Shown: positions 8,044-34,152 of the stretch, piece after piece
Numbering within the stretch: the stretch's first letter is position 1
Layout: each line of letters starts with the position of its first letter
Origin: Halanaerobium saccharolyticum
Lineage (GTDB): Bacteria; Bacillota; Halanaerobiia; Halanaerobiales; Halanaerobiaceae
NCBI RefSeq assembly: GCF_003259895.1
Contig: NZ_QLME01000024.1
Span: 1 to 50,017, forward strand
DNA length: 50,017 bases
Direction of reading: 5' to 3'
Position numbers and translations under genes: made by a program
The notes under the pieces: model-generated
What the model was told of the DNA's origin: nothing
Databases searched by the model: none
What the model saw: the letters and a program-made list of their open reading frames with translations, nothing else

Positions 8044-8064
8044 TTAATAAAAGGGGGAAAACTG

Positions 8065-14387: not shown

Positions 14388-14395
14388 GCCGTCTC

Positions 14396-14893: not shown

Positions 14894-17800
14894 ATGATTG
14901 AAATAACTGGAAATGATATAAAAAAATTAAATGATACAGATCTCAGAACTTTAATTGGATTATTATGTGAAGAAGAATTAGAAAGAAGTAATATTTCACG
15001 TAAAGGTGTTACCTGGGGTGGACATCAGAATGCCAGAGATGGTGGTGTAGATGTTAGAGTTAAAGTAAGTTCTGAAATTAATCAAGATAGTTTTATACCA
15101 GCCGGAAACACTATCTTTCAAGTTAAAGCTACTGATATGCCTGCTAAAGAAATAATAAAGGAAATGTGTCCTAAAGGTAGATTACGAAAAACTATCAAAA
15201 AATTATCAGATGACAATGGTGCTTATGTAATTGTCAGCAGCAAAGGCTCAGTAGCAGAACCTGCTCTTGAAAATAGACGTGAAGCTATTAATAGTGTTTT
15301 ATTAGATTTCAAGAAAGGTCATAATATTAAATATGATTTTTATGATAGAAACCGAATTGCAAGTTGGGTTAGAAGTTATCCCGCTTTGATTTTTTGGCTT
15401 AGAGATAAAATTTCAGCCCCAGTGAATGGATGGCAGGGGTACGAAGGCTGGATAAATTTGTCTGGTAATAAATATATTGTTGATGAGAAAGTTCGTTTGT
15501 TTAATAATACTAAATCAAGTTCAGACAGACTTCCAATAGTTGATGGGATTAATCTTATAAGAGAAAAGATGCAGCAAAATGGTCTTGCAATTAGATTAGT
15601 TGGGCTTTCCGGAGTAGGGAAAACGAGTTTAGTTCAGGCTCTATTTAATGAAAAAATAGGGAAAAATCTTCTAGAAAAAACTAAAGTAATTTATACTGAT
15701 TATAGTGACAAACCAGAACCACCACCTAAAATATTTGCTCAGCAATTAATTGCCTTAAATGAAAAAGTTTATTTAATTATAGATAATTGCCCCCCTGATA
15801 TTCATAGAAAATTAACAGAAATTTGCTCAAACAGTTTAATAAGTCTTTTAACTGTTGAATATGATGTTAAAGAAGATCTTCCTGAAGAAACTGAAGTCTT
15901 TTATTTAGAACCTGCTTCAGATGAATTAATAGAGAAAGTAATTCTGAATCAATATAAAGAGTTTAGAAGACTAGATGCCAGAAGAATTGCTGAATTTTCT
16001 GGTGGAAATAGCCGGATTGCTAAAGCATTAGCTAATGCTTTAAATAAAGATGAAAATATTAGTGAGTTAAAAGATGAAGTTTTATTTAATAGATTGTTTA
16101 GGCAGCGAAACGAAAAAAATAATAACTTACTTGAAGCAGCCGAAATATTGGCTTTAGTTTATTCATTTAGTATAAAAAATATGGAACGAAAAGATAGTGA
16201 ACTAAAGATTTTATCATCTTTATCAGAATTTAGTTCTGTAAAATTATGTAGATATGCTAATCAGCTCCAAAAAAGAGGTTTAATTCAGGAACGTGGTCAA
16301 TGGCGAGCTGTCTTACCACGTGCCATTGCAAATAGATTAGCAAAAAGAGCATTAGAATATCTACCTAAAAATATTATTTATAATAAGCTCAGTAAATCAA
16401 ATCGATTATTAAGATCATTTTCCCGGAGACTATCTTATTTAAATAATACCAGAGGAGCAAAGCAGATAGCTAATTTTTGGCTGGCAAAAGGTGGTATATT
16501 GGCTGATTTAACAAGTTTAGATAAAATTGAGGTAGAGATTTTAAAAAATATTAGTCTTATAATTCCAGAGAACATTTTATTAAAATTTGAAGAGTTGTAT
16601 TTTTCAGAACAAAAAAATAAATTTTTCAACAGCGAAAATGATTATGCTTATGAATATGCTCAAATTTTAATCTATATTTCTTATAAAGCAGAATATTTTA
16701 ATAGAGCAGTTAAAATTTTAATATTATTTACTTTAAATGAAAAGCCAAATAAAAATTATAAATCAGTACGAAAATTATTATTTTGTCTTTTTCATATTCA
16801 ATTATCAGGTACACATGCTTCACCTGAGCAAAGATTATCAGTAATTAAAGATTTAATAGAGTCTAAGTCAGATAATAAAGTTAGTTTGGGTCTTGATTTA
16901 TTTAAGGAAGCTCTTAAAACCAATAATTTTATGTACTTATTTAATTTTAGTCCTTTTATAGGAAATAGAGATTATGGCTATTATCCTAAAACAAAAAAAG
17001 AAGTTGAACAGTGGTATAAAAGTCTCTTGAAGTATGCGGTTAAAATCATAAATTCCAATGACAGTCTATCTAGAAAAATTGAAGAAATTTTAGGAGATAG
17101 CTTTAGAAATCTTTGGGGAAATATCTGTTTATATGATGAATTAGAGTCTTTAACACAGGAAATTAGAAAAAATAATTTTTGGCGAAGTGGGCTAAATGGT
17201 ATAAATCGGACTCTGAAATATGATCAAGAAAGAATGGATGATACTGCTATAGAAAGATTAAAAAAATTAAAAAGTTTGCTTGAACCTGATACTCTAGAAG
17301 AAGAAGTAGAACTTTTTCTGTTTTCTAGACATGGTATCGATTTATATGGAGCAGACAATGGTTTAGAAATCGCAGATAGAAGAAAGTTAGTAAATAAAAA
17401 AGCTAAAAGCCTCGGAGTGCGAACCGCCGGTAATATTGAGCTTTTAAAATCCTTGCTTTCTAAATTATTATTTGAAAGATCTATTAATGCAAATAGTTTT
17501 GGTCAGGGATTAGCTTTAGGTGCAGATGATCCCGAATTTTTATGGGCAGTTTTTAAATCTGAAATAAAAAAAGGGGAAGTTTTGAAGTGTAAGCTTCAAT
17601 TGTTAAAAGGGTTTTTAAATGAACTTGCAGATATTAATTATAAATTAACTAATGAAATACTAAATAATTCTTTAGAGGATGAGGTTTTAGCAGAGATATT
17701 TCCAAATTTACAGATGAGTTATATTTTTGATAAAAAAGGAGTAACTAGATTAAAAAAATCACTGAGTTTAAGTATGGCACCAATTGAAGAGTATCAGAGT

Positions 17801-18673: not shown

Positions 18674-18737
18674 AAAATATTTTGGTATTTTATTTTAAAT
18701 AAAATAATTTTAGAGAAATCAAAGGAGTATTAGACTC

Positions 18738-21700
18738 ATGATGACTAAAAATTTTAAATATATAAACTTGGGTCCGCGAGATAATATTGAAAATATTGAA
18801 TGTTTTAAAGCTATTAAATATGGGATTAATAATAAAGAAATATCTAACATAGCATTAACAGGTCCCTATGGTTCTGGTAAAAGTAGTATTTTGAAAACTT
18901 TTATAAGTGAAAATAAAAAAATAAACTTTTTGAACATATCATTAGCATCTTTTAATGAATCTGACCAAAATGATAGTAATCTAAGTAATCTGCTACAAGA
19001 AAGCATATTGAAGCAAATATTCTATCAAGTTCAATCTAAAAAAATACCATTTTCAAGATTTGAAATGATTGATAATAAAAGTTCTAAAAGTTTTATTATC
19101 GATGTATTTTTATTTTCATTATGGATTATTTCTTTTATTATTTTATTTAAACCAGAATTGGTCATTTCTGAAATAAACACTTTTTTTACCTCAGCTTTTT
19201 TAAACAAAAATATAACAAAATATTTTTTTAATATATCATTTTTTGGTTTGTCGTTTTTTTTCTTATATAAACTTTATTTCTTAATATACTCAAAAATTAA
19301 ATTTATTAGAATAAAATTTTTGGATGCAGAGTTAGAATTGAATAACATGGATGATACCTCTGTTCTTAGTAGAAATTCTAATGAATTATTATACTTATTT
19401 GAGGCAACTGATTATGAAGTAGTAATAATTGAAGATTTAGATCGATTTAATAATATTGATGTGTTTACTAAATTGAGAGAACTCAATGAAATGATTAATA
19501 ATTCTGCTAATATAGAGAGGAATATAAATTTTATTTATGCTTTAAGGGATGATTTATTTAATAGATTTGATGATCGCTTAAAATTCTTTGATTTAATTAT
19601 TCCAGTTGTTCCAATTGTTAATTCAACTAATTCTGCAAATCAAATAAATTCAATAATTGAAAAATATGATATTGAATTAGCTAATTCTTTTATTAATAAA
19701 ATTTCCTCATATATAGGTGATATGAGATTAATAAAGAATATTATGAATGAATTTAACATTTATTCAAAAAATTTAGACTCAGATTTAAATAAAGAAAAGT
19801 TATTCAGTGTGATAACTTATAAAAATAAATTTCCCAAAGATTTTTCTTCTTCTCTTAAAGGAGAAGGTCTAATTTATAACGCTTTCGATAGAAAAGAAAG
19901 ACTTAGTCGAGAAGAAATTAAATCTATTAATAAAAGAATTGAATTAAAAAACAGTAAACTTAACAAGGTCAAAGATGAATCGCTAGCTAATATTAAAGAG
20001 TTAAGAATTCTTTGTGGGAATCTCATATTATCTAAAAATAATGGCAATAGAATTAATTTTAACAATACCAACAAACAGAACTCTGAATATGTACTAAATC
20101 AGTTTCAAGAAAATGCAGTATTCAAACAATTTTTAGAATCAGATCATATTTATTCTTATTCTCGTACGGGAAGAAATATTAGCTCAAAAACCAAAATTAA
20201 TACTAAAGATGTACTAGATAAAATAAATTATTATGAACGCAAGGAAATAATTGAATTAAAATTAAAAGAAAAGCAGGAAGCTCTAAAAAAAGAAATATCA
20301 GTATTAAAAGCAGATAAAAAATATATTGCGGACTGTTCCTTTGTTGAATTTTATAATCAATTTTCTTCTTCAGAGTTTTTTGATGAAGATAAAATTAATA
20401 AATATAATGATTTATTAAAGTTTCTTTTAATAAATGGCTATATAAAAGAAAATACTTATGAAAATTATATTTCTTATCTTGATTCAAGTAATATGACAAT
20501 TAAGGATAATAAATTTATTATGAAAGTTCTGTCAGGTCAAAGTTTGGATTTTAATTATAAATTAACCAAAGTAGATAAAATAGTTGAAAAATTAAATAGT
20601 GATCTTTTCCCCAAAAAAGAAATTTTAAATTATGATTTGCTCAATTACTTGATTAAAAATAAGAGTATAAATGATAGTTATAATAATTATTTTGATTTGA
20701 TACTAAAGCAGCTGGGGGATGGAAGTGAAGTTTCTATAAATTTTATTGAAGGATTTATTAGTTATTCTAAAGAAAATATACTTAGGATTTTTATAAATAA
20801 ATTGGCGCAGACCTGGGGAAATTACTGGTATTATATTATAAAAGAATCTAACTATACTTCTGAAGAAATAAATGATCACTTGGTTTGGACTGTTAAATAT
20901 GTAGAAATGAATGACATAATAAATTTAAATAAAGACAATGTATTAAAAAAATATTTTGAAAAACAAAGTGATATTATTAATATTACAGTTGAAAATTCTA
21001 TTATGGATAAAACAAAAGAAATTATGAATAAATTGAAGATTAAATTTGATTATATTGATTTGAACTTAACTAAAGAAAATGATAATAATAAAATCGAGTT
21101 ATTCAAATATATATACAAAAATAATTTTTATAAAATTAATATTCCTATGATAACTAAAATTATTAAAAATATAACTCATGAAGAAAGTATTACAGCGGAA
21201 ATCAAAACAAAAAACTATACTACTATAATAGAGTATAAATTAAAAGCTCTAAATAAATATTTAGAAAGTAACATAAATAAATATATTGAAAATGTCTTTT
21301 TGAAATTAGAAAATAATAAAGATGAGAGTCCAATAATATTAATTACATTATTAAATAATGAAGACCTTAAATTAGAAAACAAAAAGAAAATTTTAGATTT
21401 GTCAAGTAACAAAATAATTAATTTAGATGAAGTTGAGTATAGAGAAATATTTGATTGTTTACTTAAAAGTAATATGGTTGAATCAAATTGGTTGAATATT
21501 TTAGTTTATTATAAGAATATAGGGAAAGAATTAAATAATATTATTGTTAATTTTATTAACAATAATTATCAAACCTTAACTAAACTAGATCTAAAGTATA
21601 AAAAATTAAATGATCTGTTAGGGGCGGGTGAAGTGAAATTATTTATTAGAAAGTTATTTGAAAAAAATAACATTTCAATAAATGCTGTTCAAAAAATCAC

Positions 21701-22301
21701 AAAAAATATTAATTGGTCTTATGAAGAACTTACATTTGAGAAGATAGATGGAGAAAAATTGAAATTGTTGATAGAAGAAAATGTATTGATTTTGTCACCA
21801 GCTAATTATAGTCAAATTAAATCAGTTATCAATTTAAATGATTTACATATTTTGCTTTTAGAATATAATGAAAAAGAATTTCTAAATAATATTCTAGATT
21901 ATAGTTTTGAACAGGAAGATATAATTAAAATATTAAATTCAAGTGATCTGAATTTAGAAACAAAAAAGAAATTTATAAATACAATTGACTTTAATATTTT
22001 ACTTAATATTAAAAATTTAAATTCAGATAATTTAGAGCAGATATTGAATTTGTTAAATGATTTGGTGCTTAAAATAAAAATATTAACTGAAAACGTCCTA
22101 GATCTTAGTTTTGATGAGATAACAAAAATGTTAAGAACTATTGGGGAAGATTATTCTGCATTGACTTTTTTAAGAAAAAGACCAGCATTAAACAATAGTA
22201 ATTATAATGCAGGATTATTAAGTATCTTAGAAGAAAGAGGGTATATTTCATCATATTATAAAAGAAAGGAAAGGTTTGATGTTATTAATAGATACAAATA
22301 A
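18738..22301 (+). CDS. YobI/KAP-type membrane P-loop NTPase
   Basis: This 1187-residue protein starts with a region matching the YobI family: YINLGPRDNIENIE, then Walker A TGPYGSGKSS (Lys48). Two membrane helices lie inside the NTPase domain (about residues 119-139 and 162-184). Walker B is VVIIEDLDRF (residues 228-237), the EDLDR signature of KAP-like NTPases. The remaining 800 residues are Asn/Lys/Ile-rich helical repeats without a recognised domain. KAP NTPases are membrane-tethered and occur in defence contexts. Here the gene follows the Mrr-STAND gene by 64 bp with no terminator visible, so the two may be co-transcribed. Its GC content is among the lowest in the window, a sign of transfer. 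Start: ATG 18738, or ATG 18741 directly after it. Confidence 0.78.
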   Translation: MMTKNFKYINLGPRDNIENIECFKAIKYGINNKEISNIALTGPYGSGKSSILKTFISENKKINFLNISLASFNESDQNDSNLSNLLQESILKQIFYQVQSKKIPFSRFEMIDNKSSKSFIIDVFLFSLWIISFIILFKPELVISEINTFFTSAFLNKNITKYFFNISFFGLSFFFLYKLYFLIYSKIKFIRIKFLDAELELNNMDDTSVLSRNSNELLYLFEATDYEVVIIEDLDRFNNIDVFTKLRELNEMINNSANIERNINFIYALRDDLFNRFDDRLKFFDLIIPVVPIVNSTNSANQINSIIEKYDIELANSFINKISSYIGDMRLIKNIMNEFNIYSKNLDSDLNKEKLFSVITYKNKFPKDFSSSLKGEGLIYNAFDRKERLSREEIKSINKRIELKNSKLNKVKDESLANIKELRILCGNLILSKNNGNRINFNNTNKQNSEYVLNQFQENAVFKQFLESDHIYSYSRTGRNISSKTKINTKDVLDKINYYERKEIIELKLKEKQEALKKEISVLKADKKYIADCSFVEFYNQFSSSEFFDEDKINKYNDLLKFLLINGYIKENTYENYISYLDSSNMTIKDNKFIMKVLSGQSLDFNYKLTKVDKIVEKLNSDLFPKKEILNYDLLNYLIKNKSINDSYNNYFDLILKQLGDGSEVSINFIEGFISYSKENILRIFINKLAQTWGNYWYYIIKESNYTSEEINDHLVWTVKYVEMNDIINLNKDNVLKKYFEKQSDIINITVENSIMDKTKEIMNKLKIKFDYIDLNLTKENDNNKIELFKYIYKNNFYKINIPMITKIIKNITHEESITAEIKTKNYTTIIEYKLKALNKYLESNINKYIENVFLKLENNKDESPIILITLLNNEDLKLENKKKILDLSSNKIINLDEVEYREIFDCLLKSNMVESNWLNILVYYKNIGKELNNIIVNFINNNYQTLTKLDLKYKKLNDLLGAGEVKLFIRKLFEKNNISINAVQKITKNINWSYEELTFEKIDGEKLKLLIEENVLILSPANYSQIKSVINLNDLHILLLEYNEKEFLNNILDYSFEQEDIIKILNSSDLNLETKKKFINTIDFNILLNIKNLNSDNLEQILNLLNDLVLKIKILTENVLDLSFDEITKMLRTIGEDYSALTFLRKRPALNNSNYNAGLLSILEERGYISSYYKRKERFDVINRYK

Positions 22302-22397
22302 ATTTTAGACTAGGTGTATAATTTTATAGGGGAATCTAATAATAATTTAGACAATGATTTGAACTCATAATTTAATTATCAGATTGGAGTTAAGAAA

Positions 22398-22730
22398 ATG
22401 AACAACAAACTATTAAAAAAAATCTTTAAATTTCGAGATGACCGTAACTGGTCTCAATTTCACAACCCAAAAGATTTAGCTATCTCTATTTCATTAGAAG
22501 CAGCTGAATTATTAGAGCTATTCCAGTGGAACAATTCTAAGGAGACAGTAGAAAATAATTATCAAGAACTACAGGATGAATTAGCAGATATATTGATTTA
22601 TTGTACTTTAATGGCTGATAAATTAGATATTGATCTAGATGAAGCTGTAAAAAAGAAATTAGAAAAGAATGAAAAGAAATATCCTGTAGAAAAATCATAT
22701 AACTCAAAAGAGAAATATGATCAATTATAA
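22398..22730 (+). CDS. MazG-like nucleotide pyrophosphohydrolase
   Basis: This 110-residue all-alpha protein is of the MazG/dCTPase type, cleaving a nucleoside triphosphate to monophosphate and pyrophosphate. The metal site is visible as ISLEAAELLELF (E-x-x-E) followed by DELADILIYC (E-x-x-D), and the N-terminus has the FRDDRNWSQFHNPKDLA pattern. It lies 26 bp upstream of the EVE-McrB gene. Small MazG-like enzymes often accompany McrBC and EVE genes in defence islands, perhaps to adjust pools of modified nucleotides; that role is inference. The start is ATG behind TTGGAG. Confidence 0.88.
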   Translation: MNNKLLKKIFKFRDDRNWSQFHNPKDLAISISLEAAELLELFQWNNSKETVENNYQELQDELADILIYCTLMADKLDIDLDEAVKKKLEKNEKKYPVEKSYNSKEKYDQL

Positions 22731-22756
22731 TAAGCTTATAATTAAGGAGCATAAAA

Positions 22757-25360
22757 ATGGCTGATAATGATAAAAGAATATATCTAATAATTGGAGAAAA
22801 AACAAATTTCAATAGAACTATCAAAAGCTCAGTTGATATCAATGAATTATATGAGAAAAATATGATTTCAGAAGCTATATATAATGATTTAATCTCGATT
22901 TATCCTGATGCTAAAATGAAATGCTGGGGATTTCCAGATAACAAGAATAAAGATAATGTCTGGGCCAGGATGAACGAAGAAGATCTTTGTCTAATGTACA
23001 ATGATGACCAGATTGTAATGTCAGGTATCTTTAAATATCGTTTTCATAATCAAGAAGTAGCAAAGTATATTTGGGAGAGTGATGGAACCCCTTTTGAATA
23101 TATCTTTTGTTTAGATGATGTTCACATTTTAGAAATTCCTTCAGAAAAAATATTAATAGATGAATTTGGATATAAAAAATCTTTTATCATGGGTGCCAAT
23201 CCTTTGGCAAATAGCAGACTAGAAAAAGTATTAGATAAATATGGTTCAATAGATAATTTTAGAAGAGAAATAGAAAAAGACAATAGAAATAATATATTAT
23301 ATTCTTCTAACTCCTGGAGAATACTTGCAGAAGATGTTTTTCTTAAAATTATTGATAAATCAGTACTACATAATAATGGAACTGGAATCCCAAGGGATAT
23401 AATTAAATATTTTGAAATAGAAGATATTGCAGAAGGCGGCAATAGAGAAATTATATTTAATTATAATGATGAAGAGTATTATGCTAGATTTGAACATATA
23501 AGCTTAGACCGCTATCGAATCATGTGGAGACAGGACTTTGCTAATATTTTAAAAGACAAACTATCTTTCTGGCATCAAAAATTTGAAGAAGATAGTAGTT
23601 ATGGAAGTGATCAGGAAAGACCAAAACTTAAATTTCTAAAAAAAAGTAGTAATGAATATGAAATCGAATTAATTAAAGGTGAAGAGACTGATATTACATA
23701 TGATAAATTTGATCCAAATGTCTGGTGGGTCAATCAAGGTCAAACTATGGAAGCGGAAAAGAATGAAGGAATACTTTGGGCCCCAATAAAAAGCAAAGGT
23801 GGTACTACTCAGTATCATTGGGAGACAATGACCGAAGTTAAGTCAGGAGATATTATTCTTCATTATGCCAATGGTTCCTTAAGGTATGTAAGTCAAGTGA
23901 AAGAAAAAGCGGTTAAATCAGAAAAACCGGCAAGTATGGAAGCAGATGACTGGAATCGAGAAGGTAGATTAATCAAAACAGATTATTATAAACTTGAACC
24001 GGAAGTTAATTTAGACCAATTCAATCAAGAAATAGTAGAATTAGAGATTGAAAAAGGACCAATTAATAAATTAGGTGGAGTTAATCAAGGCTATTTATTT
24101 TATTTTAACAAAAAAGCATTAGCAATTATTCAAAATAAAGCTAAAGAAACTAATTGGCCTGAATTTGCTCTTTTAGAGGAGGAAAAAATGCTTCCAGAAA
24201 CAGATTCGTTAACTGCTAAACAAAAATTATCTCAAATCAAAAATTACATCAAAGCTCAGGGCTATACTTATCCTGATAACTTAATAAAAAACTTTTATCT
24301 TTCTTTAAAAACAAAACCCTTTGTCCTGCTGGCAGGTATCTCAGGCACAGGGAAGACCAAGTTAGTAGAACTTTTTGCTAGAGCAATTGGTTGCACATCA
24401 GATAATGATCGTTTTAAGCTGATTTCAGTTAAGCCGGACTGGAATGACAGTGCAGATCTCTTAGGTTACAGCAATATTAGAGGAGACTTTCAGCCTGGCC
24501 CGACTTTAGAAACAATTAAAAAAGCTGCTGCAGATCCAGCTAACCCCTATTTAGTCTGTCTTGATGAAATGAATCTGGCCCGGGTTGAATATTATTTTAG
24601 TGACTTTTTATCAAAAATGGAGACCCGGCACTATGATGGTGATCAGATTAAAACAGATAGATTGCTAAATGAGAATGACTTTGATCCAAATGATAAAAAC
24701 AATTCTAAATCTAAATATTCTAATCTGCAGATACCGGACAACCTGTATCTTATTGGAACGGTTAATATGGATGAAACAACTCATCCGTTTAGCAAAAAGG
24801 TATTAGATAGAGCAAATACAATTGAATTTAATCAGATTGACTTAACAGCCTTTTTGAATGAAGATTATTCAGTGCAGGTTCGGAAATTAAAGGTGAATAA
24901 TCAATTTCTTAAAACTGAATATCTGAATTTAAAAGATCTGCTGCCTGATAAAAAAGATGAAGTTAGAAGAATAACTGAAGAACTGGAAAGACTAAATCAG
25001 ATACTTAAAAAGGGAAATCTGCAGGTCGGATACAGAATCAGAGATGAGATCAACTTCTATGTTGTTGAAGCGCTGGATAAAGAACTGCTGGCTGAGAATA
25101 CTGCTTTCGATAAAGAAATATTGCAGAAGGTATTACCCAGAATTCAGGGTAGTTCAGCTGTTATTAAGGAAATTTTGCTGGAACTATTTGATTTCTTTAG
25201 TGGAGCTAATTTCAGCAAAGAAAATGGGCAGCTGTCTGCAAAAATCTGGAACTATTATCAGGCAGAGAAAGAGGATTTTAAATATCCGGAATCTGCAGAA
25301 AAAATAACCTATATGCTGAGGAAATTTGAAGAAGATGGTTTTACTTCTTACTGGTTATAG
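22757..25360 (+). CDS. mcrB: McrB-type GTPase with N-terminal EVE-like domains
   Basis: This 867-residue motor and recognition subunit belongs to a type IV (modification-dependent) restriction system. The first 140 residues look like a PUA/EVE-type module (MKCWGFPDN...EEDLCLMYNDDQIVMSG). Residues about 320-466 form a clear EVE domain (VWWVNQGQTMEAE...GDIILHYANGSLRYV), a fold that reads modified bases. The McrB AAA+ domain follows: Walker A GISGTGKTK (Lys533), Walker B CLDEMNLA (Asp603-Glu604) and the McrB signature VNMDETTHPF (669-678). It should translocate DNA using GTP and activate the DUF2357 nuclease encoded next. Base composition changes near 24,320: the specificity half is more AT-rich than the motor half, which suggests a swapped recognition module. 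Start: ATG behind AAGGAG. Confidence 0.9.
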   Translation: MADNDKRIYLIIGEKTNFNRTIKSSVDINELYEKNMISEAIYNDLISIYPDAKMKCWGFPDNKNKDNVWARMNEEDLCLMYNDDQIVMSGIFKYRFHNQEVAKYIWESDGTPFEYIFCLDDVHILEIPSEKILIDEFGYKKSFIMGANPLANSRLEKVLDKYGSIDNFRREIEKDNRNNILYSSNSWRILAEDVFLKIIDKSVLHNNGTGIPRDIIKYFEIEDIAEGGNREIIFNYNDEEYYARFEHISLDRYRIMWRQDFANILKDKLSFWHQKFEEDSSYGSDQERPKLKFLKKSSNEYEIELIKGEETDITYDKFDPNVWWVNQGQTMEAEKNEGILWAPIKSKGGTTQYHWETMTEVKSGDIILHYANGSLRYVSQVKEKAVKSEKPASMEADDWNREGRLIKTDYYKLEPEVNLDQFNQEIVELEIEKGPINKLGGVNQGYLFYFNKKALAIIQNKAKETNWPEFALLEEEKMLPETDSLTAKQKLSQIKNYIKAQGYTYPDNLIKNFYLSLKTKPFVLLAGISGTGKTKLVELFARAIGCTSDNDRFKLISVKPDWNDSADLLGYSNIRGDFQPGPTLETIKKAAADPANPYLVCLDEMNLARVEYYFSDFLSKMETRHYDGDQIKTDRLLNENDFDPNDKNNSKSKYSNLQIPDNLYLIGTVNMDETTHPFSKKVLDRANTIEFNQIDLTAFLNEDYSVQVRKLKVNNQFLKTEYLNLKDLLPDKKDEVRRITEELERLNQILKKGNLQVGYRIRDEINFYVVEALDKELLAENTAFDKEILQKVLPRIQGSSAVIKEILLELFDFFSGANFSKENGQLSAKIWNYYQAEKEDFKYPESAEKITYMLRKFEEDGFTSYWL

Positions 25361-25446
25361 TTTGGACTGCAATACAGACAAGGAATTTAGATGAATTAAG
25401 GATATAAAAATATTGAATGAGGCAACAACTATATTAAGGTGATAAA

Positions 25447-27915
25447 ATGGCAGTTAAAAAGATAGATCTAATCACAATTAAAAATGATAAATTTTCTCTA
25501 AATATTAAGGGGAAGCCTCTTCATCCTGACCACGAAAAGAAATTCCCGGAGAGAAATAAGGCTCAGGCTTCTTACAGCTTTAGCTCAATTTTAGAAAAAG
25601 GATTGGATTTTAAATATTACGATCCGGAAATAGATCAGCTCAAATTGAGCCAGTTTAACTCTATAAAAAGCTACCCCCTCTTTTTTGAATATCAAAACTA
25701 TGATTTTCACATTGAAGCAGAAACGCCGATTGAGATCTACCATCCTAATCGGGAAATCAGAGAATCACTGTCACATCCAAATGACAAGCCCAATGTACTT
25801 TACGGCAGCATTAATTTTGGCAGTGATATCGGCTATTCTGAATTTGAGATTCGCAGTAATTCTCAGGTGATTTTAACCCTCAAACTGGAGGTTTTTCCCA
25901 GCAAGATTGACTACCAGCATGACTATAATAAGCTTTTAGAAGAGGTAAATAAGGAAGTATATAATTTAGCCTATGATTTTTTAAGAAAGACCTATCAGGA
26001 AATGAAGATATCTGAAAAGCAGAATATCACTGAAGCTGAGTTTTTTGCGATCATTGAAAATATCTTTGAAGATTTATTTAAAGCTCTAAAGAGAATAGAA
26101 GAGTCCCCTCATCATCAGATTATTAGAAAGAGAAATGTTCGACCTGCTTCCAGAGTCAAAAAAGTCGGCAGGCAGAGCCTTAAGTGGTTAAATAAAAACA
26201 GCCGTCATTATGATCAGGACCTTAAGCTGCCGGAAAAGATGCTGGCAGTAGAAAAGAAGCTGAGCTATGACAATTTTGAAAATAAATTTATCAAGTGGAG
26301 TTTTTCAGAACTGATTAAAAGGCTGAAACACTTTAAAGTAAATTACTCTAAATCCAAATCAAATCCGGATCAAAATTTTCTGGCTGAAATCGATAAAATG
26401 ATCAGAAAACTTAAATTAAAACTTAAACATTCATTTCTGGCTGAAGTTGGTGAACTGCAGAAAATAGATTCCATCTCTCTAGTGCTGCAGATGGCTCCTG
26501 GTTACAAGGAATTATATAAATATTACCTAATGCTTTTAAAAGGTCTTTCTCTCAATGGAGATATCTTTCGACTTTCAATTAAGCAGCTTTGGCAGCTCTA
26601 TGAATACTGGACATTTCTTAAGTTAAACAGACTGCTCCAGGATAAATATAAGTTGATTAAAAATAATATTATTGATTTAGATTACAGCGGCATCAATGTT
26701 ACCCTTTCTCAGGGAGCAGCGGCTGAAGTCGAATATCAGAATCCAATTACCGGTGAGAAATTCAAATTAAGCTACAATAGATCGAGTGGAGATGGAATCA
26801 CCACCAACCAGAAGCCGGATAATATTCTTTCACTTAGTAAAAATGATTCTGAGCATCAGTATAAATTCATTTTTGATGCTAAATATCGGCTCAACAACGC
26901 AGAAGAGGGAACTAGATATGGTGACAGATACGAAGGGATTCCCGGTCCGGAAGAATCAGATATCAACACCATGCACCGCTATCGAGATGCCGTAGCAGCT
27001 GAGATGGGAGAAAACTACCGGCGAACAATGGTTGGAGCTTATGTACTCTTTCCCTACCACGATCAGGAAAAATTTAAAAAGCACAAATTCTATAAGAGCA
27101 TCGAACAGGTCAATATTGGAGCTTTTCCATTTCTACCTGGCAGCACAGAACTTTTAGCCGAGTTTTTAGAAAATATTATTGACGAATCAGCTCAAAGTAA
27201 TTTTGACCGCAACCTGATGCCGGCTGCGGCTGATGAATTTAGACCACAGCCCGAATTTAAAGTTGATCTTCTGCTTGGATCTCTGCGCAGTAAAAAGCAG
27301 TTTGAGTATTTACTGGCCAATAATCTTTACTATTTACCTTTGCAGCAGTCAGTTTTAAATCATAATTTAGAATATGTGGCAATCTTTCAGAGTAAAGCAA
27401 AATTTGGAGAGCAGAGCGGTGTCCGCTATTACGGCAGAATTAAGAATAAAAAGATTGTTAAAAGAGAAGAAATAGATTTTCCTTCCAGCCGCAAAAATAT
27501 TGGTCAGAATTATCTGCTTTTCGATGTTGAAAGCTGGCAGCAGCTCGGTAAAAAGATTAAATCCGAAGGCTATGGAGTTAGCAGCAGCCATATTTATTCC
27601 AATCTAATGCTGCTTAAAAAGGCAGATACTCTGCCTGAGTTAAGTATTCGCTCTTTAAAAGAATGGCGGCTTTGGCTGGAATTAAAGCGGCTCAAGGAAG
27701 ATATAAAACTGCAATTAAAAAATAATAATCTGGATCAGATCCAAAAAATTGAAGGTTTCAGAGCTGGAAAAGCGAAAATCAAACTTAAAGAAGATATACT
27801 GCAGGTAGAACTGAAAGAAAATCAGCTCGAATTTTCTTATTCAGAGTTTATTCAGAATCCGAGATCTGTTTTAAATAAGATAATGGAACTTATTAATGAC
27901 AGCTCTCAGCACTAA
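25447..27915 (+). CDS. McrC-type nuclease subunit (DUF2357)
   Basis: This 822-residue protein is of the DUF2357/McrC class, the nuclease partner of McrB. The N-terminal beta-rich part (residues 1-160) includes YSEFEIRSN. A helical linker follows. The PD-(D/E)XK core is visible as KPDNILSL (Asp458) and FIFDAKYRL (Asp477-x-Lys479). The stretch after 600 is an extra domain, containing a probable beta-rich segment (ARYYGRIKNKKIV-like) and an acidic C-terminus, that makes it longer than classical McrC. It follows the McrB gene by 86 bp. The composition is more GC-rich than in the upstream defence genes, like the 3' half of mcrB, so the pair probably moved together. Start: ATG behind TAAGGTGA. Confidence 0.86.
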   Translation: MAVKKIDLITIKNDKFSLNIKGKPLHPDHEKKFPERNKAQASYSFSSILEKGLDFKYYDPEIDQLKLSQFNSIKSYPLFFEYQNYDFHIEAETPIEIYHPNREIRESLSHPNDKPNVLYGSINFGSDIGYSEFEIRSNSQVILTLKLEVFPSKIDYQHDYNKLLEEVNKEVYNLAYDFLRKTYQEMKISEKQNITEAEFFAIIENIFEDLFKALKRIEESPHHQIIRKRNVRPASRVKKVGRQSLKWLNKNSRHYDQDLKLPEKMLAVEKKLSYDNFENKFIKWSFSELIKRLKHFKVNYSKSKSNPDQNFLAEIDKMIRKLKLKLKHSFLAEVGELQKIDSISLVLQMAPGYKELYKYYLMLLKGLSLNGDIFRLSIKQLWQLYEYWTFLKLNRLLQDKYKLIKNNIIDLDYSGINVTLSQGAAAEVEYQNPITGEKFKLSYNRSSGDGITTNQKPDNILSLSKNDSEHQYKFIFDAKYRLNNAEEGTRYGDRYEGIPGPEESDINTMHRYRDAVAAEMGENYRRTMVGAYVLFPYHDQEKFKKHKFYKSIEQVNIGAFPFLPGSTELLAEFLENIIDESAQSNFDRNLMPAAADEFRPQPEFKVDLLLGSLRSKKQFEYLLANNLYYLPLQQSVLNHNLEYVAIFQSKAKFGEQSGVRYYGRIKNKKIVKREEIDFPSSRKNIGQNYLLFDVESWQQLGKKIKSEGYGVSSSHIYSNLMLLKKADTLPELSIRSLKEWRLWLELKRLKEDIKLQLKNNNLDQIQKIEGFRAGKAKIKLKEDILQVELKENQLEFSYSEFIQNPRSVLNKIMELINDSSQH

Positions 27916-28036
27916 TTTTGATTTAGATATAAATTTCAAGATAGTTGAGATTCGGCTGATGGTAGAATGTGCTAAACGCAAAATAAAACTTTTTGACTAC
28001 AAAAAGCTCGGTCAGAGGGAGCTGCTTGAAAAATAG
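27914..28036 (+). pseudogene. Gene fragment after the McrC gene
   Basis: An open frame without an initiation site runs past the McrC stop and reads ...EIRLMVECAKRKIKLFDYKK, then LGQRELLEK and a stop (from ATG 27959 this is 25 residues). The sequence looks like the C-terminal end of a folded protein, not random AT-rich DNA, but the family was not recognised. It is best read as the tail of a deleted gene. The following bases, 28037-28269, hold no recognisable gene and one weak hairpin near 28201-28223. Confidence 0.35.
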
Positions 28037-28269
28037 GATGACAAGACTTTATCTCGGGGAAATTAAAGGGTGAAATTTTTTGTGACCTATCAAATTGTAA
28101 TCTAGTAGTAGATGATTGATATCTTGCATAATAATTTATAATTAGAACTTACCTTTTCTAAATTAATCTGATAAAATATTAGCAGAATATTTAGGTTTTT
28201 GTCAGATGTAAATCATCTGTGACTTTAAAATACTTGATGAAAAATATTCTAGTCTATCTATATTTATAA

Positions 28270-28476
28270 AATACAGATTCTGATATTACTGATCACTTAA
28301 AAGAACATATTTGCTACAATAATCTAACTATAATTATTGCGTTAACTGAAATTGTCGTTGAGAATCTTAATAATGTACTAGAACAAATATATAAAAACAA
28401 GAAAGAATTAGATGTGAGGTCCCCCATTAAATTAGAGATAGTTTATTTAATCCATAACACTAAAAAGAGAGAGTGA
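28270..28476 (+). pseudogene. Possible truncated ORF coupled to the Sll1717-type gene
   Basis: A 68-codon open frame (NTDSDITDHLKEHICYNNLT, then ALTEIVVENLNNVLEQIYKN and onward) ends with TGA at 28474-28476. That stop overlaps a GTG at 28473, giving a GTGA junction typical of translational coupling. There is no ATG, GTG or TTG near its beginning, so it is probably the 3' remnant of a gene that once preceded the ATPase. Its composition is like that of the neighbouring defence genes. Family unknown. Confidence 0.35.
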
Positions 28477-28481
28477 TAACA

Positions 28482-30074
28482 GTGGAGCAATCTTTTTATA
28501 ATAATCTAGGTTTTTATACTAATCCTTTTAAAACTACTAATGCCTATTACGAAGAAAATCTTGATAAATATTTTGTTTACCCACCTTTTTTTCAATCTGT
28601 TTTAGGAACGCCATCTTCTCCTAGAAGTAATATAATATTTGCCCCCCGTGGTGGAGGTAAGTCTGCTCAAAAAATAATGATAGAAAAAGAAAGCCATAAA
28701 AGAGATATTTTATGTATATCACATGATGATTTTAATAATATATTAGACTCAGGTGTAAAAAATGTTACTTTAAATGATCATTTACAAGTAATTATAAGGA
28801 AGACAATTATAGGAATACTTATTGCTTTTAATGAAAAGGAAGGGGCACAAATTGATAAATCAGACAAGGAAATATTATATTTATTGTCTAAAAAATATCT
28901 TAGTAATTTGTCTCGTTTAGAACTGAAAGAAAATATTTCTTCAATAAAAAATTTTTCTACCCAAGTTAAGGAAGTTTGGACAGGATGTTCTAACTTTGTT
29001 AATCAAATTTTTAACGAGTTAATGAAAAAGAAAGTTGATGATTGGAATGGAATTGATTTAAATAAAATAAGTTTGAAAGAAACAAATTTTAATAATAATA
29101 AACCAAAAGAAGAATTAAGATTTCTTGGCCAAATTGCTAAAAAAATTGGATTTGAGTCGATATACATATTAATAGATAAGATTGAAGAATATCCTTCCAC
29201 AAACACTCCCGAAAAGGCTTATGAATTAATAAGTGAGTTGTTGGAAAATCTGGTTATATTAGAAACAGGAAACTTCGCTTTTAAATTTTTTCTTTGGGAT
29301 AAGATCGAACAGTTATGTATAGATAATAAAATTAGATTTGATAGAATCCTTGATTATAAATTAAAATGGAGCAAAAAGAGATTGAAGGAGTTATTAATTA
29401 AAAGAATTAAATACTATAGTAAAGGAAAACACAATAGTTTTGAAGATATTATTGACAGCCAGTTGAAAGATAAGATTAAAACGACTTTTGAAGATAATGA
29501 ATTGGTTAATAATATAGATGATTTATTGGCAATTTTTGCAATGAATTCTCCTAGAAATTTAATTAGAATATGTGGTACGATTTTAAATAAACAACTAGAT
29601 TTAAATTCAAACTTATCTACGGTCTCTTATATTAGTTTTGTTAATGGGATAGAAGAAATAAGTAAAAAGATTTCTAGACAATTAATGGATAGTTCTATGA
29701 TTAACCAAATAATGAAAGTGGGTAAAGTTAGTTTCACTATACCATATATTTCAAATAAAATTTTTAAAATCACTACTCAAGGTGGTGGCAATAAAATTAA
29801 ACAATGGAGAGATACTGGTCTTGTTATGAAAGTCCCTACTAAATTTAGAGGTAAAACAAATAAGCCTGTATATTTATATGCAATAAATAATTTGATTTTT
29901 GCTAAGCAATTATATAAAGATTTAAACATATTCGAGTTTTTTGAAGAGAAAGTAAGGGTTTGTTCCACTTGCAATGAATTTTTATTAAGAGAATGGGACG
30001 AAAAACCAGAAGAACCATATGTTTGCCATAAATGCAATAGTGAATTAGATTCTAACCGATTGAAATTATTTTGA
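28482..30074 (+). CDS. Sll1717-type P-loop ATPase with C-terminal zinc ribbon
   Basis: This roughly 530-residue protein opens with the pattern of the Sll1717/ORC-CDC6-like ATPases: NPFKTTNAYYEENLDKYFVY, PPFF, then Walker A FAPRGGGKSAQ (lysine at about residue 60). The middle part is helical. YILIDKIEEYP may be the Walker B region (Asp), and MNSPRNLIRICG is a typical sensor-2/lid region. The last 45 residues hold CSTC...CHKC, a zinc ribbon. The start is placed at GTG 28482. GTG 28473 is in frame, but it adjoins the GAGAG ribosome-binding site. The family is often found alone in variable genome regions. A defence or DNA-binding role is inferred from island context and the zinc ribbon; no partner has been demonstrated. 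Confidence 0.75.
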   Translation: MEQSFYNNLGFYTNPFKTTNAYYEENLDKYFVYPPFFQSVLGTPSSPRSNIIFAPRGGGKSAQKIMIEKESHKRDILCISHDDFNNILDSGVKNVTLNDHLQVIIRKTIIGILIAFNEKEGAQIDKSDKEILYLLSKKYLSNLSRLELKENISSIKNFSTQVKEVWTGCSNFVNQIFNELMKKKVDDWNGIDLNKISLKETNFNNNKPKEELRFLGQIAKKIGFESIYILIDKIEEYPSTNTPEKAYELISELLENLVILETGNFAFKFFLWDKIEQLCIDNKIRFDRILDYKLKWSKKRLKELLIKRIKYYSKGKHNSFEDIIDSQLKDKIKTTFEDNELVNNIDDLLAIFAMNSPRNLIRICGTILNKQLDLNSNLSTVSYISFVNGIEEISKKISRQLMDSSMINQIMKVGKVSFTIPYISNKIFKITTQGGGNKIKQWRDTGLVMKVPTKFRGKTNKPVYLYAINNLIFAKQLYKDLNIFEFFEEKVRVCSTCNEFLLREWDEKPEEPYVCHKCNSELDSNRLKLF

Positions 30075-30143
30075 TAGGCTATAATAGGTATTTTTTAAAA
30101 GTTTTTCAAAAAACTTTATATAGAAATAAAGGAGGTGAGATTT

Positions 30144-30293
30144 TTGGCTGTTAAACATATAGATACTGGAGTAGTACACAAGGGTAGAAAAGGTGGAAAG
30201 ACTGGTTGTGGAGTTGATACTAGAAAAAAACCAAGTCATTGGGCAAGTACAAGCTCAAGAGTAACATGCAAGAAAGATGGATGTAAAAACTAG
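30144..30293 (+). CDS. Small Cys/His-rich protein (49 residues, TTG start)
   Basis: A perfect AAAGGAGGTGA lies 5-6 bp before TTG 30144, which opens a 49-codon frame: MAVKHIDTGVVHKGRKGGKT, then GCGVDTRKKPSHWAST, then a tail with TCKKDGCKN. It is basic, with three cysteines and three histidines and a final C-x4-C, so metal binding is plausible. It follows the zinc-ribbon ATPase by 69 bp and precedes a terminator, so both probably form one unit. The excellent ribosome-binding site, the sequence content and the terminator support a real gene that length cut-offs would miss. Family unknown to me. Confidence 0.7.
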   Translation: MAVKHIDTGVVHKGRKGGKTGCGVDTRKKPSHWASTSSRVTCKKDGCKN

Positions 30294-30304
30294 TTTTTAT
30301 GAGG

Positions 30305-30350
30305 CCAGGTAATGGAAGATATTTTTTGAACAAAACTGTTACCTGGTTTT
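30305..30350 (+). terminator. Intrinsic terminator after the ATPase/small-protein unit
   Basis: CCAGGTAA at 30305-30312 pairs with TTACCTGG at 30339-30346, followed by TTTTAT. It separates this unit from the AAA/subtilase pair. Confidence 0.75.
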
Positions 30351-30449
30351 ATAAAACATTTTCAGATCAGAGTAAGTTTATTTTGGAAAATAATTTAATA
30401 GATTTTGAAATGTTTAGAAAATCATTCTTAATTTGCAGGACAAAAATAT

Positions 30450-30477
30450 TTGCCATAGAAGTAATATAATATATAAT
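30450..30477 (+). promoter_or_regulatory. Putative promoter of the AAA-ATPase/subtilase pair
   Basis: TTGCCA at 30450-30455 and TATAAT at 30472-30477 are 16 bp apart, 45 bp before the ATPase start codon and after a terminator. A second TATAAT-like hexamer at 30464-30469 is an alternative. Confidence 0.5.
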
Positions 30478-30521
30478 GAATATAAGTCTATAAAATTATA
30501 ACTTTCAGGAGGTGTTATAAG

Positions 30522-31490
30522 ATGGCTAGAGGTGATTTAGTTTTAAAATTAGTTCAGGCTGGAATGTCTGGAGATAAAAGCCTATTTGAAAGAACTACTA
30601 GAGCTATTATTTCGGAAGAAAAAGCGAAAGATCATCATATTCTGGCTTCAAGGATCGAAGAAAAGTTCAAAAATGAGAATAAGAGCACTTCTAATAACAA
30701 AAATAATACCTATTATCTTAAAAATAAAAATGCTAAAAATAAGGCTTTGATAGAAAGAATTCCTCGATTTACTTTTGAAGATTTAATATTAGATAACAAA
30801 ATATTAAATACTTGTGATGAACTGATTGAGGAGCAGCAGAAAGCTAATATACTAAGAACCAACAACGTGGAACCACGACATAGAGTACTTCTGGTAGGCC
30901 CACCAGGAAACGGAAAAACTTCTTTAGCAGAAGCAATTGCCGAGGAATTAATGGTTCCCTTATTTATAGTTTCTTATGAACAGCTTATAAGCAGTTATTT
31001 GGGAGAGACAGCCAGGAAAATTGATGAATTATTTGAATTTGTCAGCAAAAGAAATTGTGTATTGTTTTTTGATGAGTTTGATGTGCTGGGTAAAGAAAGA
31101 GGAGATTCTAGAGAATCGGGAGAAATTAAAAGAGTAGTCAGTTCTTTATTAATGCAGGTCGATGATTTACCAAGTAATGTAGTTGTTGTGACTGCGACAA
31201 ACCATCCAGAATTATTAGATAGAGCTGTCTGGCGCCGATTTCAAATTAAACTTGAGTTAGATTATCCTGCCAGAGAAGACATTATTAAATGGTTTAATAA
31301 ATTTGAAAAAAGTATCAATACCAATTTGAAAACTGATAAAGAAATTCTGGCGGATAAATTATTGGGGTTGAGTTTTGCAGAGATAGAACAATTTGGCCTT
31401 GATGTTTATCGAAGATTAATCTTAAGTGATAAGTCTCTTAAAAGTATAATAGAAGAGAGGCTAAAGCAAAGGAGTAATCAGCTGAATTAA
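30522..31490 (+). CDS. ietA: AAA ATPase, IetA-like
   Basis: This 322-residue AAA ATPase has a short N-terminal helical domain (residues 1-80) and one AAA module. Walker A is GPPGNGKTS (Lys132), Walker B is LFFDEFD (Asp184-Glu185), the sensor-1 strand is VVVTATNHPELL and the arginine finger region is DRAVWRRFQ. The next gene encodes a large subtilisin-like protease and lies a few bases downstream. An AAA ATPase paired with an S8 protease is the composition of IetAS, first known from plasmid stability and incompatibility in Agrobacterium and later shown to be antiphage. The ATPase probably controls or feeds the protease. The start is ATG behind TTCAGGAGG. Confidence 0.82.
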   Translation: MARGDLVLKLVQAGMSGDKSLFERTTRAIISEEKAKDHHILASRIEEKFKNENKSTSNNKNNTYYLKNKNAKNKALIERIPRFTFEDLILDNKILNTCDELIEEQQKANILRTNNVEPRHRVLLVGPPGNGKTSLAEAIAEELMVPLFIVSYEQLISSYLGETARKIDELFEFVSKRNCVLFFDEFDVLGKERGDSRESGEIKRVVSSLLMQVDDLPSNVVVVTATNHPELLDRAVWRRFQIKLELDYPAREDIIKWFNKFEKSINTNLKTDKEILADKLLGLSFAEIEQFGLDVYRRLILSDKSLKSIIEERLKQRSNQLN

Positions 31491-31512
31491 TACATGATTG
31501 GAGGAAACCGAC

Positions 31513-34089
31513 TTGCCCCAGAAAAAGTATATTCCTTTTCCTAATTATACAATCAATGGTCGTGAAAGTTTAACTGGAGGAAGATCTAAGATAAAGAGTC
31601 CTTCTCGTGAAAAACAAAAAGATAAATTTGATGGTCCTATGAGAGAGTTGACGCGTACAATGGAGTCAAGACTTGCTAAAATAAAAGATGAGACTACTGG
31701 CTTAGATCCGGATATGGTTCTGGTATTAGAAACTGTGGGTAGCGTCAGTAATTTTTATACAGCAGTAAAAAATACTCAAGGGTTTAGCTGGTTGGTAGAT
31801 TCTATTTCAGAGGGTATTGAAGAAAATGAAGAATTTTATAAAAATAGTGCTCCTTCAGGTAAGGAATTAAAATGCAGATTATATATGCTCTTAACAAATA
31901 AAACTGCGCTTGACCAGCTGCTTCAATTGTGGGATAAATTTAAGAGAGAAGAAGATCTTCCCCGAGGTAAAAAAGGTTGGAGAGAGATCTTTAGTCATTT
32001 AAAGGATATCAGAACCTGGGGTGTAGAGGATAGGCTTGAAGATACTGGTCTGTTAGAAAGATGGAAAGAAGATTTAGAATATCAAGATTCAGTTAAGTTC
32101 GAAATAGAATTTTGGTTTAATGATGATCAGCACAAACAGAAATTAATTGAATCTGATTTTAAAAGAAAAATTGAAGAATTTGAAGGTGAGGTTATAGATT
32201 CGGCTTTAATTGAAGAGATTAAATATCATGCTTTTTTAGCGAAAATCCCTGCTGTTTCAGCTGAAAAATTAGTTGCTGACTTTAGACAAAATAATGAAAA
32301 TAAAGTTTTAAAGTCCGAATCTGTAATGTTTTTTAATCCTCTTCCACAGGCAGATTATAAATTTCAGATTGAAGAATTGGAAGAATTAGCTACCGACAAT
32401 ATTGGTACTGCAGAACAAATCGGTATGGAGCCAGTGGTTGCTTTATTTGATGGTTTGCCTTTGCAAAATCATCAATCTATCAAAAATAAATTAATTATTG
32501 ATGATCCTGAAGATTTTGAGAGTAATTATCTGGCTAAATATAGACTGCATGGTACAAGTATGGCGTCCTTGATTTTAAATGGAGATTTAAATAATTCTTT
32601 TCTTAAACATGAAAGGCCTATTTATGTTAGACCAATATTAAAGCCTGACTTAGAAAATAATTTTGATGGTCAAATAAGAGAAACTATTCCTGGAGATAAA
32701 TTATTTATAAAAAGGATTTATCAGGCTGTAAAAAGATTATTCGAGGAAGGAAATGACGGGGTAGCTTCTGAAATAAAGATCATTAATTTTTCCATTGGTG
32801 ATAAATATCGTCCATATTTAGATAAGATGAGTTCTCTGGCCCGGCTATTAGATTGGCTTTCCTGGAAATATAAAATTCTTTTTATGGTTAGTGCTGGTAA
32901 TAAAGTTGAGAATTTTGATTTTGCAGAAGGAGAATCTGCAAAGGATAACTTATTAAAAAATATAAATAAAAATCTAAGAAACAGTAAAATTTTATCACCT
33001 GCAGAGTCAATAAATTCAATTACTGTTGGAGCTCAGCATAAAGATTATAGTGAGTTTTCTTTAAATAGTCATATTCACACTGATTTTTTTGAAGATTATA
33101 ATAATTTACCCAGTCCTATTTCACGCTTTGGCTTAGGTTATAATAGAACAGTTAAACCTGATATTTTATTGCCAGGGGGCAGACAGATATATAATAAGAA
33201 TTACTTGCCCGGGGGAGATTATAGATTTACTCCTAACTTGTCCACCCGCAAACCCCCAGGCTTAAAAGTTGCTTTTCCCGGATCAAGTCCAGGGTTAAAT
33301 AATTTTGCCTATACTGCAGGTACAAGTAATGCCAATGCCTTAGCAACTCATAAAGCAGCTGAATTATATGAAATATTAAAAACCAATGAAGAGTTTATTA
33401 ATATACCAGATGATGAGATTACATCATTAATAAAATGTCTGTTAGTTCATTATGCAGACTGGAATAATGGATATAAGTTATTGGAAGAAACATTGTCTCA
33501 AGAAGTAGATATTAATTCTTTTAGAAAACACGTACAAAAATTTTTAGGTTATGGTTTTATTAATCTAGAGCAAATATATGGCTGTACTGAAAGACAGGTG
33601 ACTTTATTTGCTACATCACAAATCAAGGCTGAGGAGGGGCACCAATATATTTTCCCCTTACCTGAAAGTCTGGAAAGTAAAGCTATTCCAAGAAATCTAA
33701 TTATTACTCTGGCCTGGTTTAGTCCAATTAGATCTCAGTTTGAAAATTATCGATTAGCTAAGTTATATTTTAAGCCTCCACAAGATGAACTATTATTAGG
33801 AAGAAGCCAGGCAGATTGGCGGGCTGTAATGAGAGGGACACTTCAGCATGAAATTTTAACAGGTGATAAAGCCAGTGTTTATTATGAAAGTGATAATATA
33901 AAAGTCAGTGTTAACTGCTATGATAAAACAAATGAACTAAATAATAATAATCTTGAGATCCCTTACGCACTTGCAGTTACACTAAAAATTGAAGAAGATA
34001 TTAATATTTATAATGAAATAGAAGAAAAGGTAAGAATAATTAATAAGCAGAAAGAACAGATTAGACTTAAAAATACAGTGTTTATATGA
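31513..34089 (+). CDS. ietS: Subtilisin-like serine protease, IetS-like
   Basis: This S8-family protease is about 858 residues long. The start at TTG 31513 has GGAGG 8 bp upstream; TTG 31498 is in frame but lacks a ribosome-binding site. The first 300 residues form an uncharacterised, mostly helical domain. The catalytic triad is intact: Asp313 in VVALFDGLP, His346 in HGTSMASLI and Ser605 in AGTSNANA, with the oxyanion Asn463 in VSAGN. About 200 residues follow the protease core. There is no signal peptide, so it acts in the cytosol. Together with the AAA ATPase upstream it matches the IetAS two-gene system; the cleaved target is unknown. Confidence 0.83.
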   Translation: MPQKKYIPFPNYTINGRESLTGGRSKIKSPSREKQKDKFDGPMRELTRTMESRLAKIKDETTGLDPDMVLVLETVGSVSNFYTAVKNTQGFSWLVDSISEGIEENEEFYKNSAPSGKELKCRLYMLLTNKTALDQLLQLWDKFKREEDLPRGKKGWREIFSHLKDIRTWGVEDRLEDTGLLERWKEDLEYQDSVKFEIEFWFNDDQHKQKLIESDFKRKIEEFEGEVIDSALIEEIKYHAFLAKIPAVSAEKLVADFRQNNENKVLKSESVMFFNPLPQADYKFQIEELEELATDNIGTAEQIGMEPVVALFDGLPLQNHQSIKNKLIIDDPEDFESNYLAKYRLHGTSMASLILNGDLNNSFLKHERPIYVRPILKPDLENNFDGQIRETIPGDKLFIKRIYQAVKRLFEEGNDGVASEIKIINFSIGDKYRPYLDKMSSLARLLDWLSWKYKILFMVSAGNKVENFDFAEGESAKDNLLKNINKNLRNSKILSPAESINSITVGAQHKDYSEFSLNSHIHTDFFEDYNNLPSPISRFGLGYNRTVKPDILLPGGRQIYNKNYLPGGDYRFTPNLSTRKPPGLKVAFPGSSPGLNNFAYTAGTSNANALATHKAAELYEILKTNEEFINIPDDEITSLIKCLLVHYADWNNGYKLLEETLSQEVDINSFRKHVQKFLGYGFINLEQIYGCTERQVTLFATSQIKAEEGHQYIFPLPESLESKAIPRNLIITLAWFSPIRSQFENYRLAKLYFKPPQDELLLGRSQADWRAVMRGTLQHEILTGDKASVYYESDNIKVSVNCYDKTNELNNNNLEIPYALAVTLKIEEDINIYNEIEEKVRIINKQKEQIRLKNTVFI

Positions 34090-34152
34090 TATGTGATTAG
34101 AGTTAAAAATAATCAGTTTTCGATTTTAAAGACATGGGGGCGAGGTGATCCA

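Follow-up and report, generated by a model that had tools for sequence, protein, structure and literature searches.

A mosaic defence island of described module types behind a shared promoter-like leader in Halanaerobium

Results

Five defence modules on one strand

The window analysed here, that is, the whole stretch of 50,017 bases, is one complete contig (C24) of a 3.3-Mb Halanaerobium draft genome. As the initial annotation had described, five defence modules in one orientation, all on the + strand, fill positions 14894-34089 with little else. Its left boundary, however, has to be moved: the related block begins at about 12261, with phage-type replication genes, and not at 14894. Three such genes (12438-14387; a DnaD-like helicase loader/replisome organiser, a G39P-type helicase loader and a 109-aa ORF, recognised by PHROG and Pfam matches) are followed by a shared leader (14655-14718), which recurs in the genus ahead of unrelated cargo. 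These features, and all those described below up to the end of the last module, are also on the + strand. On the left, a gene for a DUF4351 protein (Rpn-type recombination-promoting nuclease) at 11191-12090 has many copies in the genus (80-89%). Directly behind the last gene, ietS, lies a gene for a DUF1848 protein (34093-35091), a domain listed by PADLOC as DRT-associated; no reverse transcriptase was found near it, and one relative in the same genus (42% identity) carries an in-frame stop.

The modules match described defence types

The first gene behind the leader (14894-18673) encodes a 1259-aa PD-Lambda-4_A-like protein, which matches the PADLOC profile of that name over residues 1-1252 of 1259 (862.5 bits, 1.3e-259) and comprises an Mrr-type nuclease motif (D..QVK), a STAND-like NTPase and a long C-terminal part. 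PD-Lambda-4 comes from Vassallo et al. 2022 (PMC9519451), and its domain table is given in PMC10952713. A B partner, which the PADLOC name would imply, was looked for, and PD-Lambda-4_B had no match among the ten proteins scanned. A Rhizobium beringeri plasmid (L228) carries a PD-Lambda-4-like gene adjoining an ATPase and S8 peptidase pair that resembles IetAS, the same two types as in the window.

After a gap of 64 bp follows the gene of a 1187-aa Tmn/YobI-type KAP-like NTPase (18738-22301), with matches to Pfam YobI-ATPase (348.6 bits, 7.4e-104) and, over residues 23-1013 (990 residues), to the PADLOC Tmn model (240 bits, 9e-72). Two hydrophobic stretches can be read from its translation between Walker A and Walker B. 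The Tmn protein described in PMC11846954, an NTPase of the KAP family, has two transmembrane segments and is inhibitory to several phages.

The third module opens with a gene for a MazG-like nucleotide pyrophosphohydrolase (22398-22730; Pfam MazG-like, 82.7 bits, 2.3e-23). The EVE-McrB protein encoded next (22757-25360) has an EVE-like modified-base sensor at aa 321-452 and an McrB AAA+ part at aa 483-867, and matches PDC-M26A (196.8 bits, PADLOC) as well as Pfam AAA_5. Its EVE-like region is similar, at 3.5e-15, to PDB entry 6yex, which is filed as an HNH endonuclease and which we take to be the EVE-HNH enzyme VcaM4I. The McrC-like protein (25447-27915) carries DUF2357 (231.7 bits, 1e-68) and a PD-(D/E)XK_7 nuclease (Pfam PDDEXK_7, 154.9 bits, 2.7e-45); a match to a protein kinase structure (E 0.0067) was dismissed as chance. 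The parts of a type IV McrBC system of the EVE type are thus all present, namely an McrB AAA+ protein with a modified-base sensor and an McrC nuclease. EVE-McrB has been described as the commonest defence architecture of EVE domains, and as abundant in Firmicutes (PMC7641849).

Between McrC and the fourth module lies a remnant of a transposon end (28081-28250), a sequence of about 170 bp that is multicopy in the genus (76-78% identical copies). Copies in relatives adjoin genes for a DDE-type transposase, an AAA ATPase and a zinc-binding protein (names read from translations), and the repeat, being a transposon end, was ruled out as a regulatory RNA. The Sll1717-family P-loop ATPase behind it (28473-30074) scores above the NCBIfam cut-offs for NF053860 (DS41_1; 378.2 bits, cut-off 370, 5.9e-113) and NF047389 (Sll1717 family; 111.5 bits, cut-off 75), and ends in zinc-ribbon-like CxxC pairs. 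DS-41 is one of the DefensePredictor systems, every named one of which lowered either the plating of phages or the size of their plaques in E. coli (PMC13092281). Sequence searches with the PD-Lambda-4, Tmn and Sll1717 proteins found no solved structures.

A Cys/His-rich protein of 52 aa is encoded at 30135-30293, with a stem-loop behind the gene. Comparison with the G004 copy gave 17 synonymous and 10 non-synonymous codon changes, with the differences concentrated at third positions; the mostly synonymous substitutions and a match to the phrog_38555 family indicate that it is a real protein. No copy was found in viral contigs and phage records, although PHROGs includes the family. The initial annotation had paired this protein with the Sll1717-type ATPase, a pairing that its distribution contradicts. 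In H. congolense, at a locus that lacks Sll1717, a 94%-identical copy stands between a type I restriction system and IetAS, directly 5' of the latter; in G004 the gene is a cassette between attC-like repeats of an integron-like array (L078); and plasmid relatives occur in Vibrio, Marinobacter and Enterococcus, in other gene contexts. An E. coli plasmid relative of Sll1717, in turn, has no such small gene annotated alongside. We therefore ruled out the two as a unit (the small gene occurs without Sll1717 in L021, L078 and plasmids, and the Sll1717 relative without the small gene) and assign the small gene to the region upstream of IetAS.

The last module is preceded by a 45-bp sequence (30428-30472), 93% identical copies of which are found ahead of a helicase-like gene behind hsdR in G009, and in G003. 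It consists of an IetA-like AAA+ ATPase (30522-31490; PADLOC, 459 bits, 2.3e-138) and an IetS-like subtilisin-family protease (31498-34089; PADLOC, 930 bits, 4.1e-280, with a Peptidase_S8 match too). Both score below the cut-offs of the NCBIfam equivalogs (237.6 against 510 for IteA, 93.1 against 900 for IteS), and on these scores we file the pair as IetAS-like, in a clade separate from the tested equivalogs. IetAS is said to go back to Gao et al. 2020.

In the PADLOC, Pfam and NCBIfam profile searches, all five modules match known types, at E-values that leave chance far behind, and by these matches we assign them to PD-Lambda-4, Tmn, MazG/EVE-McrB/McrC type IV restriction, DS-41 (Sll1717) and IetAS. 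The initial annotation had also put forward the YobI-type NTPase, and Sll1717 with the small protein, as good candidates for new antiphage systems, and their weak annotation in Pfam and their location in a defence island speak for that reading. The former, however, matches the model of Tmn, which has phage phenotypes (PMC11846954), and the Sll1717-type ATPase passes the cut-off of DS-41, which has been phage-tested as a system (PMC13092281). Together with the small protein that occurs without Sll1717, and the E. coli plasmid relative lacking an adjacent small gene, these matches make new systems very improbable here; the two supposedly new modules are, by their profiles, members of described types. 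The novelty of the island lies in the way known modules are arranged.

The island is accessory and mosaic

Several unrelated defence systems are clustered at this locus and are accessory in the species group. A counterpart in a related species, G001:C1, aligns to window positions 12261-14816, 14984-15242, 22355-28026 and 30479-34065; gene order is retained between the replication genes and IetAS, and identity is 91-93%. On this common backbone the cargo differs: PD-Lambda-4 is reduced to a 63-aa open remnant in the same place, Tmn is absent, and three other small genes replace Sll1717. The G001 island sits beside tRNA-Arg and tadA-SRP RNA-dnaX. At this site, G005 and G009 have restriction genes, G007 has the remnant of a restriction gene, and mostly ordinary genes are found in G004, G006, G008, G010 and G011. 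The window's own genome has tadA on another contig with other neighbours, and its island site differs from that of G001.

Conservation of the same order as core genome across the taxonomic order, which the initial annotation had named as the finding that would speak against a defence island, was not observed: a Sll1717 homologue was found in 0 of the 60 relatives searched, and gene content differs at comparable sites. Comparison of the locus in relatives instead revealed gains, losses and replacement of modules, in agreement with the module exchange that had been proposed. Exchange reaches into single genes as well. The AAA part of McrB is 75-90% identical to relatives (L113, L114, L115) whose N-terminal part, in place of EVE, is MrcB_N or missing, and since the AAA half is kept while the N-terminal halves differ, sensor parts are exchanged too. 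In L114 the McrB partner is a 1014-aa protein without a Pfam match. These comparisons indicate that the island is accessory and mosaic in Halanaerobium.

We considered whether the modules might instead form one cooperating, operon-like system, in which MazG might, for example, adjust the nucleotide pools on behalf of McrBC, or PD-Lambda-4 might work jointly with Tmn. The genes are codirectional, with short gaps between PD-Lambda-4 and Tmn and inside MazG-McrB-McrC; the MazG-like gene stays beside McrB in G001, where MazG-McrBC is kept as a unit; and the Rhizobium PD-Lambda-4-like gene adjoins an ATPase and S8 peptidase pair. Nevertheless, individual modules have been gained or lost independently from one species to the next, and we regard such cooperation as improbable.

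A leader shared by unrelated cargo

The leader, of about 55 bp, heads the array before PD-Lambda-4, and copies 82-91% identical to it are found in the genus. Including the window, there are nine such heads (eight elsewhere in the genus; a small sample, in which orthologous loci are not independent), each with a TGTYGA part and a AAGGAAAA-N14-GAARTAT part. The cargo behind them is diverse: PD-Lambda-4 in the window and its remnant in G001:C1, type I restriction in G005:C22, G007 and G004:C14, a KAP/PifA-like NTPase in G005:C37, an AbiO/Nhi-type protein in G000:C44, and gene sets unclassified by PADLOC in G005:C46 and G001:C14. A tenth, partial copy lies ahead of an sbcCD-like pair. The G004 ortholog of a LacI-type regulator in the left flank of the window (9716-10741) has the leader directly behind it, and then a type I restriction cassette.

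The clearest breakpoint is seen between G005:C46 and G001:C14, where 2,923 bp of upstream DNA are 95.6% identical, the identity ends about 75 bp past the leader start, and the cargo is then unrelated. Among the 36 pairs of heads, the 3 kb of downstream DNA are related in 3 and the 2 kb of upstream DNA in 6. One reading frame is open across the leader, and we asked if the sequence could be a C-terminal coding remnant; the heads have no upstream homology in common, and this reading was dropped for that reason. Nor was there an Rfam match at E 1 for the leader as a structured RNA, or anywhere in the window.

Some genes directly behind the leader are unclassified and are candidates for undescribed defence genes: those at 634-1431 (265 aa) and 89-469 (126 aa) in L158, and at 5968-7077 (369 aa) and 4883-5677 (264 aa) in L159. 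The 264-aa gene has a weak MauJ match, below cut-off.

In two other heads, the leader follows RecT/RadC-like mobile-element genes. This position bears on the possibility that the island is the cargo of a degenerate prophage, a phage satellite or an integrative element, with the replication genes at 12438-14387 moving along. The replication block matches phage families, and it is 93% identical in G001:C1, beside the same defence genes; block and island thus go together in two species whose sites differ. On the other hand, the window contains no recognisable structural module, integrase or terminal repeat, and relatives have IetAS and McrBC without the replication block. We see mobile-element cargo as a conceivable origin, albeit one we would not favour.

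The leader resembles a promoter

Within the leader we found a Spo0A-box-like TGTCGAC (14663-14669) and a sigma-H-like promoter, AAAGGAAAA-N14-GAAGTAT (14678-14708). The sigma-H promoter consensus of B. subtilis has AAAGGAAAA and nnnGAA elements; the leader -10 (GAARTATA) differs from the exact B. subtilis sigma-H GAAT. A sigma-H gene is present in 12 of 12 genomes, most of which have two (in G000, the two sigma-H-like genes are at C13:15331-15924 and C6:46662-47246, with 337 and 210 bits). The Spo0A box is TGTCGAA (PMC3485338). The full box occurs in two of the nine heads, and the window has six of its seven bases.

The spacing of the two promoter elements is fixed. A search of twelve genomes with TAAAGGAAAA-N(11-15)-GAARTATA gave 20 exact matches, all 20 with a spacing of N14, against 0 for the reversed pattern; with one mismatch allowed at N14, there were 53 matches against 8 for the control (all these counts come from pattern searches, in which orthologous matches are not independent). 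Judged from the loci opened, most of the 24 exact matches in the N14 search precede the type I restriction set of an hsdM operon, an integron-type integrase (seven genomes) or four of the heads, and the remainder precede glgC, LysM proteins and others. The hsdM operon has the promoter pattern in G000, G001, G004, G005 and G009. At these hsdM loci (L163, L164, L167, L168 and L176, from G005, G004, G000, G009 and G001, respectively), hsdM lies behind a gene for a 146-aa secreted protein, with a promoter of the same class as the leader and a different spacer sequence.

The leader thus looks like a sigma-H promoter combined with a Spo0A-like box, and we treat it as a putative promoter. Its elements point, with moderate strength, to growth-phase control. 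We infer that it would be read by a sigma-H-type polymerase, be influenced by Spo0A and drive transcription beyond the first gene. The leader is confined to the head module, with no copy between the window modules; the other modules may have promoters of their own.

The leader could alternatively be the attachment site of a tyrosine recombinase, at which modules were inserted as cassettes in an integron-like manner. Homology does stop at the leader on the cargo side, integron-like elements are present in the genus, and a 184-aa tyrosine recombinase is encoded at the far end of the G004 cassette (G004:C14, L020 10283-10834) and at the G007 hotspot (G007:C1, L100 4432-4986). However, there is one leader copy per array, no attC-like repeats were noticed in the intergenic gaps read, the leader alignment lacks a strong inverted repeat, and the two leader elements keep a promoter-like spacing that is also found ahead of genes such as glgC. 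An attachment site is, on balance, unlikely, and we prefer to read the leader as a promoter. The island as a whole was likewise rejected as an integron array, with no attC recognised on reading the sequence of the window gaps, and no adjacent integrase.

Two observations concern the recombinases themselves. The 184-aa enzyme near two defence cassettes is a possible hsdS switch or cassette mover. The integron-like element of Halanaerobium species consists of a 361-aa tyrosine recombinase gene followed by genes between attC-like repeats (CATAACATGGGATT...CCCAGTAACGTTAGA), and was seen in L078 (G004:C28) at 1461-10000, in G000:C28 near 33670, and in L170, L173, L175 and L180; a literature search on Halanaerobium integrons found no relevant paper.

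Discussion

The explanation we favour, and hold to be reasonably probable, is that modules of known types occupy an accessory, mosaic island, in which cargo is swapped by recombination behind a portable promoter-like leader. The leader of about 55 bp would stay in place while recombination between short stretches of common sequence swaps one defence cargo for another behind it, leaving scars like the PD-Lambda-4 fragment seen in G001. The island would lie in one orientation because all its modules are downstream of a single leader, probably a transition-phase promoter. Each module presumably defends the host: EVE-McrBC would act against modified DNA, and PD-Lambda-4, Tmn, DS-41 and IetAS would sense infection and stop phage or cell from growing. 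What may be new is the leader, together with the breakpoint where it ends.

More tentatively, the leader with its sigma-H/Spo0A-type elements might be a portable defence promoter, which marks where unrelated defence cargo is exchanged and puts that cargo under transition-phase control, with the integron integrase and the chromosomal type I restriction system using the same promoter class. Since these two would share a promoter class, the capture of genes and immunity would be switched in step. We think this possible, but less than even.

How swapped-in foreign defence genes come under host control is a question that has found few good answers. Should the leader be a fixed switch, it would explain one-direction islands and tie immunity to growth phase, and it would offer a way to find new defence genes, namely to look at what lies behind the leader (the genes of 265 aa in L158 and 369 aa in L159 being candidates). 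If it is a mere recombination relic, the finding shrinks to an ordinary defence island.

The comparison with known systems reveals likenesses and differences for each module. The window PD-Lambda-4 protein matches the A component over its full length, with nuclease motif, NTPase and long C-terminal part, whereas the described system is from a distant phylum and the window shows a single gene, with no B component recognised. Like Tmn, the second protein has a YobI-ATPase domain, with two hydrophobic segments inside the NTPase domain that may be transmembrane; its C-terminal ~170 residues, however, fall outside the Tmn model match, and its best plasmid relative (Sutcliffiella) is 30% identical. 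The third module shares the EVE-type sensor with EVE-McrB/McrC type IV restriction (PMC7641849) and the EVE-HNH enzyme VcaM4I (PMC7897488), and the McrB AAA+ and DUF2357/PD-(D/E)XK McrC with the former, but has a MazG-like gene attached, an extra N-terminal region of ~320 aa, and an AAA part held in common, at 75-90%, with relatives that have MrcB_N instead. The Sll1717 protein passes the DS-41 and family cut-offs, the former only barely (378.2 against 370), and its zinc-ribbon-like C-terminal end lies outside the model match. The AAA+ ATPase and subtilase pair matches the PADLOC IetAS profiles over the full length, yet is far below the cut-offs of the tested NCBIfam equivalogs. As for the array as a whole, it is like an integron in that variable, codirectional cargo follows a fixed promoter; it differs in having no adjacent integrase, no attC noticed between modules, and cargo that is multi-kb and multi-gene.
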